Of a stretch of 55,644 nt of DNA, positions 17,037 through 29,101 are shown in pieces. The DNA lies in NCBI GenBank assembly GCA_019347805.1, contig JAHWKR010000019.1, positions 1-55,644 on the forward strand. Reading direction: 5' to 3'. Source of the stretch: Methanobacteriota archaeon (GTDB lineage: Archaea; Thermoplasmatota; E2; JACPAO01; JAHWKR01). Position numbers and translations under genes: made by a program. Below the pieces are notes generated by a model. The model had not been told where the DNA came from, did not search any database, and worked only from the letters and a program-made list of their open reading frames with translations. Position 1 is the stretch's first letter. Every line of letters starts with the position of its first letter.

Positions 17037-17708
17037 GTGTCGGACGAGTACGAAGAGGGCGATTTTGACGAAGAGGACTTCCAGGAGGCTCCGGAAGCGA
17101 GCGGCCTCCAGAAGTACGAAGAGATCGTCTTCTGTCCCGACTGTGACATCTACATGCCTTACAAGGTCGAGGGTGCCATCGTCCGACGCCGCTGCCCCAG
17201 TTGTGGCAAGGAGTTCGAGGGCGGCATGGAGGTGACCCCGGGGGTCGCGTCGGCCCCGGAACCGGCCAAGCCCAAGAAAGGTGCCAAGAAGGAACCCGCG
17301 GCCAAGAAGCCCGCCAAGAAGGCGACGAGCACGAAAGCGGCGACCCCCTCCACCCGCACGACGGGGGCAGCCAAGAAGAAAACGGCCGGTGCCAAGGCGC
17401 CCGCGGCCGGTGCGAAGAAGGCGACCAAGAAGGCGCCGGCGAAGAAGGCCACCACCAAGAAGGCGCCCGCCAAGACGACGAAGTCGTCGAAGAAGGCGAC
17501 CAAGAAAGCGGGAAGCCGCAAGGGCACGGCGAACGCCAAGCGGCAGGTCACCGCAAAGGCGCCCGGCGCCAGGAAGACCGGCAAGGCGCAGGCCAAGAAG
17601 GCCGTGCGCAAGACCCCGGCGAAGAAGACGTCGGCGCGCAAGACGGCCACCAAGCGGCCGGCCGCTAAGCGCGCAGCGACGACCAAGAAGACGACACGCA
17701 GGCGCTAG
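17037..17708 (+). CDS. Zinc-ribbon protein with histone-H1-like Lys/Ala tail
   Basis: 223 residues. The N-terminus is strongly acidic (EEGDFDEEDFQE). A zinc ribbon follows at about residues 32-60: FCPDCDIYMPYK ... RRRCPSCGKEFEG (two CPxC pairs). From about residue 78 to the end the protein is almost only Lys, Ala, Thr, Pro and Arg with repeated AKKA / KKAPAK motifs, like the C-terminal tail of histone H1 or bacterial AlgP/Hc1. It is probably a nucleic-acid-binding, chromatin-associated protein. Its TAG stop shares the palindromic CTAG with the megasynthase stop (17705-17708), so the two genes converge with no spacer. Confidence 0.8.
   Translation: MSDEYEEGDFDEEDFQEAPEASGLQKYEEIVFCPDCDIYMPYKVEGAIVRRRCPSCGKEFEGGMEVTPGVASAPEPAKPKKGAKKEPAAKKPAKKATSTKAATPSTRTTGAAKKKTAGAKAPAAGAKKATKKAPAKKATTKKAPAKTTKSSKKATKKAGSRKGTANAKRQVTAKAPGARKTGKAQAKKAVRKTPAKKTSARKTATKRPAAKRAATTKKTTRRR

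Positions 17709-29101: not shown

Follow-up and report, generated by a model that had tools for sequence, protein, structure and literature searches.

Here, we report a megasynthase encoded by an archaeon of the Thermoplasmatota (assembly GCA_019347805.1). It lies in a 55,644-bp stretch of DNA, hereafter the window, that is the entire contig C17 (JAHWKR010000019.1) of the host genome, G000. The open reading frame (ORF) occupies 17705..29101 on the minus strand and encodes 3,798 aa in one frame from a GTG start. It is a new variant of type I fatty-acid synthase (FAS) or polyketide synthase (PKS) that occurs in several archaeal families, mostly with threonine carriers, and it is neither a fused Pfa system nor unique to G000. 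Judging from its sequence, it is probably an iterative, acyl carrier protein (ACP)-dependent type I FAS, belonging to an archaeal-bacterial family distinct from Pfa. Building fatty acids is a chemistry that archaea are usually said to lack. A first-pass annotation of the window had proposed that an archaeon encodes a Pfa-like megasynthase as a single chain, and the single frame and its archaeal flanks bore this out.

The synthase, its domains and its carriers

The chain consists of a degenerate FabK/nitronate monooxygenase (NMO)-like barrel, a first ketosynthase (KS1), an acyltransferase (AT), a second ketosynthase (KS2), three carriers, a ketoreductase (KR), a PKS-type dehydratase (DH) and a phosphopantetheinyl transferase (PPTase), in this order. 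Active-site motifs are retained in all of these domains except the barrel. The series from KS1 to PPTase, claimed earlier from the bare sequence, was confirmed by Pfam searches, structural models and alignments. KS1 (26624..28048, aa 352-826; all domains are on the minus strand) has an intact Cys-His-His set, and its Pfam match (3.3e-73) comprises a best stretch at 352-642, a C-terminal part at 650-768 and an extension at 770-826. The AT (25220..26164; Pfam match over the whole of aa 980-1294, 6.7e-46) contains GHSLG and AFHS, and we take the latter to be a malonyl-type signature. KS2 (23195..24763, aa 1447-1969), the domain used to trace the family, also keeps Cys-His-His. The three carriers (22607..22864, 22232..22453 and 21482..21685) correspond to three PP-binding stretches (1.1e-19). 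The KR (19847..20539, aa 2855-3085) was matched at 2942-3085 (7.3e-29) and the PPTase core (17849..18064) at aa 3680-3751 (4.6e-13), with the Ser..Tyr..Asn motif of the former and the PPTase motif of the latter read by eye. This fused PPTase was the sole PF01648 match found in G000. For the double-hotdog DH (18602..19624, aa 3160-3500, motif HxxxGxxxxP), PKS_DH_N fell narrowly below threshold (26.8 vs. a cut-off of 27 bits), PKS double-hotdog dehydratases were the best structural matches of its model (pLDDT 77.7), and the His, Glu and Gln positions were invariant in an alignment of 14 sequences. The catalytic residues of KS1 and AT (Ser, His and the Phe of AFHS in the latter) and the KS2 cysteine were invariant in 49/49 aligned sequences, as were the KS2 histidines in all 48 sequences reaching them.

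GC content at codon positions 1/2/3 of the ORF (0.71/0.50/0.84) is of the coding type and similar to that of the flanks. Among the three other genomes of the host order (G001, G002 and G003), G001 and G003 encode a homologue with 55% and 53% identity, respectively, and the frame is therefore not open merely through chance and high GC content. The ordinary archaeal flanks described previously were confirmed by Pfam for PolD DP2 (39945-43817) and S3Ae (7392-8231), to which archaeal PPS_PS (1934-2704) can be added; KptA, also named in that description, was absent from the Pfam matches of the 40 ORFs scanned in the window, a subset that includes some antisense frames. An assembly chimera or bacterial contamination was rejected as an explanation, and we give it practically no credence. 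The host genome (2.94 Mb, 90.9% complete) is indeed a draft of 81 contigs, but its contamination is just 0.26% and archaeal genes flank the synthase on both sides of the contig. Moreover, GC per codon position resembles that of these flanks, a homologue is present in a complete Heimdallarchaeum chromosome, and a search of related archaeal genomes, as the annotation had suggested, revealed the same pairing of carboxyltransferase and synthase genes in two further genomes of the host order.

All three carriers in the window have threonine at the attachment site, carrier 1 reading LGIDTVKQAE. Using a motif screen able to show Ala or Cys too, we obtained 110 carriers from 46 family proteins (two truncated proteins yielded none), in which the attachment residue was Thr in 103 and Ser in seven; Thr/Ser counts were 49/5 in Thermoplasmatota, 24/2 in Heimdall and 30/0 in bacteria. 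Three further Asgard proteins added nine carriers, all with Thr, after exclusion of a tenth motif match that falls in another domain. In a phmmer alignment, the family Thr coincides with the Ser of solved carriers. Ser was present in 18/18 carriers of four loci on bacterial plasmids, which were taken from 15 records whose carriers are similar and which we label 'Pfa-like'. Thr and Ser carriers are mixed within single proteins (L019 and L082; L-numbers denote single synthase loci), and we therefore argue that the hydroxyl group is the functional point. It is predicted from these sequences that the carrier Thr is primed by the PPTase, which would represent an unusual carrier chemistry. A literature term search for threonine carriers gave no match; this means no more than that the terms are not found together in the literature covered. 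On the other hand, the replacement of Ser by Thr in all three window carriers could mean that they are unprimable, the protein being a relict that has decayed or synthesises nothing. This appears very improbable, considering that only Thr or Ser occurs at this position in every screened carrier, sometimes both in one protein, that the KS and AT catalytic residues are invariant wherever covered, and that the PPTase is retained.

Enoyl reduction and the proposed cycle

The N-terminal TIM barrel (28334..29053, aa ~17-256) has the FabK/NMO fold without the catalytic GGH motif. Its NMO-like nature, as proposed earlier, is supported by a model (pLDDT 75.8) whose best matches are NMO/FabK structures with moderate TM scores of about 0.5-0.6; by sequence, the FabK match is weak (4iql, E 0.0011) and no NCBIfam model matched at 1e-5. 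It reads EDTGDG where the second barrels of relatives read ECGGHIG. Such a second, FabK-like barrel bearing ECGGHIG, located behind a degenerate first one, is present in SW_10_69_26 and in 12 of the 13 Asgard sequences that cover the N-terminus, and that of L019 matches TIGR03151 (1e-30). The window synthase has the first barrel only, and the G001 and G003 synthases have neither. With the GGH motif missing and no barrel in G001 and G003, the window barrel was rejected as a working enoyl reductase (ER); it is probably not functional in this sense, and probably structural or vestigial. The annotation had also placed all Pfa roles on one chain. This does not hold for enoyl reduction, for which an unlinked FabI is the better candidate.

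The FabI of G000, unlinked to the synthase, is 61% identical to the synthase-adjacent FabI of G070 (range for the unlinked orthologs of G000, G001 and G003, 56-61%), for which the best NCBIfam models are those of FabI, with scores below their cut-offs. It retains Tyr-Tyr-Lys (by eye), presumably the FabI catalytic motif. In G002, which has no synthase, the FabI search gave merely distant matches to short-chain dehydrogenases/reductases (best 4.8e-11). FabI adjoins the synthase in 9/9 loci of families f24/f34 and 2/2 of f23 (f19, f23, f24, f31, f34 and f35 are Thermoplasmatota families). At L023/L079 (JAJPHT010000039.1), the synthase adjoins both FabI and a carboxyltransferase. Searching the host order for NMO genes gave partial matches. 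The three PF03060 matches of G000, of which one exceeds the cut-off (31.1 bits), are Dus, OMPdecase/RraA and FMN_dh/Glu_synthase proteins; since all are other enzymes, no FabK/NMO rival was found in G000. A PfaD-type FMN enoyl reductase was likewise not found in this 90.9% complete genome, the barrel lacking GGH and the PF03060 matches being other enzymes. Based on these sequences, the ER looks swappable among a fused FabK barrel, an adjacent FabI gene and an unlinked FabI. Neither FabI nor a fused catalytic barrel was found for L080, L082 and L083 (f19/f35) or for L018, the last without a genome-wide FabI search.

In the proposed cycle, the adjacent carboxyltransferase, together with biotin carboxylase and biotin carboxyl carrier protein (BCCP), would make malonyl-CoA, which the AT would load onto Thr-anchored carriers primed by the C-terminal PPTase. 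KS1 and KS2, whose motifs are intact, may carry out the condensations, perhaps initiation and elongation; KR would reduce and DH dehydrate the product, again as their motifs indicate. Finally, the unlinked FabI may reduce the enoyl group in trans, as suggested by the presence, absence and swapping of reductases, so that the chains would be largely saturated. Of the features needed by a functional FAS, KS, malonyl AT, ACP, KR and DH motifs are all intact, with carriers of the Thr instead of the Ser type, and an enoyl reductase appears to be available in the unlinked FabI. In functional terms, the strongest evidence is that one core is combined with several enoyl-reductase arrangements, and that each NMO-profile match of G000 is another enzyme. 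Possibly, the acyl chains are substrates of PlsC-like acyltransferases of the genome, with ordinary G1P ether-lipid synthesis running in parallel.

Distribution, neighbouring genes and lipid genes

The synthase is not isolated in the host archaeon, being found across several archaeal families. Matches to the KS2 profile (E<1e-30; 10 weaker matches left out) were present in 97/389 Thermoplasmatota genomes from eight families, and at E<=1e-20 in 37/227 genomes of the Heimdallarchaeum phylum. Within the host order, the synthase is present in three of four genomes, the exception being G002 with a short KS protein only (L012; G002:C81, ~301-2100, -), whose carrier-like end lacks the usual attachment motif (by eye). 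No KS2 match at 0.001 was found among the genomes sampled from the rest of the host class. In three Asgard genomes, extra KS2-type genes (G401:C197, G427:C190 and G432:C8; frames of ~500-550 aa) occur in addition to a longer copy. Named loci, collected with two exact peptide patterns and hence thinly sampled for bacteria, included the complete Ca. Heimdallarchaeum endolithica chromosome, Myxococcales, Mycobacterium, relatives of Actinoplanes and a Saprospiraceae metagenome-assembled genome (MAG); the bacterial relatives belong to Myxococcota, Actinobacteria and Saprospiraceae. KS1-AT-KS2 was colinear in 36/37 of these loci, L052 not being a member, and was followed by carriers, KR and DH wherever the locus extends sufficiently (for L049, DH was seen only in the whole-genome copy L081). 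Frame changes were observed in four, and the on-chain PPTase is missing in several lineages. A plasmid search with KS2 added one relative, Nonomuraea (11.9-Mb record), and two distant matches of 27.7-31.4% identity, both in genes annotated as beta-ketoacyl-ACP synthase (fabF-type).

We reconstructed a FastTree phylogeny of KS1-AT-KS2 (46 sequences, 1,249 columns, midpoint rooting). Loci L035, L046, L050 (frame changes), L051 and L052 (non-member) were excluded from the trees, the carrier count and the neighbour survey below, and L016, L017, L023 and L049 were replaced by the whole-genome loci that they duplicate. The window sequence grouped with G001 and G003 (support 1.0). Fifteen of the 16 bacterial sequences formed one clade (1.0), placed among archaeal lineages under midpoint rooting, and the sixteenth, from a Myxococcota MAG, paired with f23 archaea (0.77). 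Most of the sampled diversity of the family is archaeal. A bacterial source, considered probable in the first-pass annotation, is therefore not supported; since reciprocal KS1/KS2 rooting gave differing, weakly supported roots and bacterial sampling was thin, neither direction of transfer is shown.

An acyl-CoA carboxylase carboxyltransferase gene (29332..30942, minus strand, 536 aa; PF01039, 1.4e-197) lies 230 nt upstream of the synthase on the same strand and is a conserved neighbour. In a survey of 49 loci, such a gene was directly upstream in 3/3 loci of the host order, 2/2 of f23, 1/1 of f31 and 13/13 Asgard loci with upstream sequence (two more start too close to judge), and in none of the f24/f34 (0/9), f19/f35 (0/3) or bacterial loci (0/16). 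Genes for biotin carboxylase, BCCP, biotin ligase or an alpha/beta hydrolase are also present in several Asgard loci, and the hydrolase gene adjoins the synthase in several cases. G000 encodes two biotin carboxylases and a BCCP seen by eye; the carboxylase operon on its contig C57 (by eye) is grouped with acyl-CoA dehydrogenase and enoyl-CoA hydratase-like genes and may therefore serve degradation. A PPTase-like match was located downstream in 8/9 f24/f34 loci (one tested with Pfam), and an AccC-like match downstream in 9/10 actinobacterial loci, the tenth locus being truncated within the gene. Myxococcales, actinobacterial and Saprospiraceae loci have a cluster of upstream genes in common, and its sole tested member (L021) is an acyl-CoA dehydrogenase. 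In the window, a PF01804 penicillin-amidase family protein (31469-34207, +), possibly an acyl-amide hydrolase, adjoins the carboxyltransferase-synthase pair on the opposite strand. Farther away, a 119-nt Rfam tRNA match (45983-46101, +) that ARAGORN did not list suggests, by this discrepancy, an intron-bearing archaeal tRNA.

Across the 389 Thermoplasmatota genomes, synthase and FabI (threshold 1e-30) occurred together in 83, synthase only in 14 (eight f19, two f31, one f35 and three f24 drafts), FabI only in five, three of which had weak KS2 matches, and neither in 287. PlsC-like genes were found in 96/97 synthase genomes vs. 60/292 others, and G000 encodes such a protein. A G1PDH-type gene (PF13685, E<=1e-15) was found in 11/97 synthase genomes vs. 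225/292 others; it is present in G000, G001 and G002 and in 0/81 f24/f34 synthase genomes. In 14 named genomes used as controls, PF01648 and PF01553 matched 10 each, all bacteria as listed, and PF13685 matched eight (four archaea and four bacteria), so that PF13685 is not specific to archaea. Several f34 genera (including g81, g89, g95, g110 and g117) have PlsC-like acyltransferases without a synthase match and may use outside fatty acids. We infer that f24/f34 correspond to Marine Group II, because the lack of a G1PDH-type match in their synthase genomes agrees with the available text of a study of 270 Marine Group II MAGs, in none of which the enzyme that forms the glycerol-phosphate backbone of archaeal lipids was found (PMC6461757). 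It is tentatively proposed that dedicated ACP-dependent FASs with phosphopantetheinyl-Thr carriers and an interchangeable ER are widespread in archaea, namely in Heimdall-type Asgards and in Thermoplasmatota, Marine Group II probably among them, and that they provide acyl chains for mixed archaeal/bacterial-type membranes. If true, this family would be a missing enzyme of such proposed membranes.

Several observations weigh against the reading of the protein as a fatty-acid synthase with the proposed cycle. Thr carriers may be poor PPTase substrates, and no thioesterase or reductase for product release was recognised on the chain, in agreement with the annotation, or adjoining it in the window. 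The carboxyltransferase is mmdA-like (NCBIfam), and propionyl-CoA could therefore be its substrate. G002, 74% complete, has no PPTase or biotin carboxylase matches either. No FabI at 1e-30 was found in f19 (eight genomes) and f35 (one), nor a catalytic barrel in the three loci read, and the Asgard relative L018 starts at KS1 without a barrel. Two families supply most of the synthase genomes in the 389-genome association (81/97), so that genomes are not independent, and synthase-FabI co-occurrence is expected in f24/f34 because FabI is adjacent in all nine loci read. Finally, 60 genomes have PlsC-like genes without a synthase, and Heimdallarchaeum is reported, in the passages available, to lack PlsC (PMC8813620), so that a membrane role is not general.

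A specialised polyketide or a storage or secondary lipid, instead of bulk fatty acid, is an unlikely product. It would suit the patchy occurrence within the host class described above, the lack of a recognised release domain, the acyl-CoA dehydrogenase-type gene beside some bacterial relatives and the G1PDH-type gene retained by the host; however, the carboxyltransferase linkage and the exchange of FabI and FabK suit a fully reducing cycle, and no adjacent tailoring genes were recognised among the ORFs scanned.

Comparison with known systems

No description of this single-chain family in archaea was found in the open-access literature searched, subscription papers being mostly outside the search. 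In the passages available, a 2012 review stated that an archaeal fatty-acid synthase system had not yet been described in detail and reported the proposal that archaeal fatty-acid synthesis, if any, proceeds without ACP (PMC3533463). Villanueva 2017, as cited in parts of two later papers, proposed a putative Marine Group II fatty-acid pathway with PlsC, predicting acyl lipids in Thermoplasmatota without G1PDH and, in these citations, naming no synthase (PMC6962369, PMC7852524); which lipids Marine Group II makes is regarded as an open question (PMC6962369). The present family is a candidate for the synthase of that pathway. Since such a synthase would prime itself and has carboxylase and reductase genes linked to it, expression of one or two proteins would make it possible to test whether archaea build acyl lipids. 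Heimdallarchaeota KS domains obtained by genome mining probably represent the same gene family; the passages available cover KS fragments near polyunsaturated fatty acid (PUFA) synthases, and not architecture, ER, carboxylase or carriers (PMC7472256). PKS genes of the Thermoplasmatota were found expressed in Cariaco Basin transcripts, with the specific gene unnamed in the text available (PMC9902471).

Known Pfa synthases (PfaA/C/D/E) require a KS-chain length factor (CLF) pair plus a FabA-like DH/isomerase. It is quite unlikely that the archaeal protein is a synthase of this type, leaving double bonds in a polyunsaturated or secondary lipid. In favour of it, PfaA TIGR02813 was the best NCBIfam model (948.2 bits), tandem carriers are described as a Pfa hallmark in the text available (PMC3098273), and an earlier survey, as far as its passages show, placed Heimdallarchaeota KS domains nearest PUFA (PMC7472256). 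Nevertheless, that score is below the cut-off of 1010.1 bits, the KS2 active site is intact, unlike that of CLF, the sole recognised DH is PKS-type with no FabA-like domain among Pfam matches, the carriers have Thr instead of the Ser of tandem Pfa carriers (LGIDSIKRVE type), and FabI is present in G000. On the grounds of score, KS2, DH and carriers, the earlier view of the protein as a merged Pfa system was abandoned in favour of an iterative FAS.

With the Pfa and related secondary-lipid synthases of Shulse and Allen 2011, the archaeal synthase shares, from what that source describes, the KS-AT-tandem ACP-KR logic, the need for a PPTase and, in some members, a FabK-fold ER (PMC3098273). The main text of that paper nowhere contains the word 'archaea'. 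Unlike Pfa, it is one chain with an intact second KS, a PKS-type DH and Thr carriers, and the ER of its family is FabI or a fused barrel, although no ER is apparent on the window chain. The type I FASs of bacteria and fungi likewise run an iterative, fully reducing cycle, from which this family differs in domain order and in the source of its ER.
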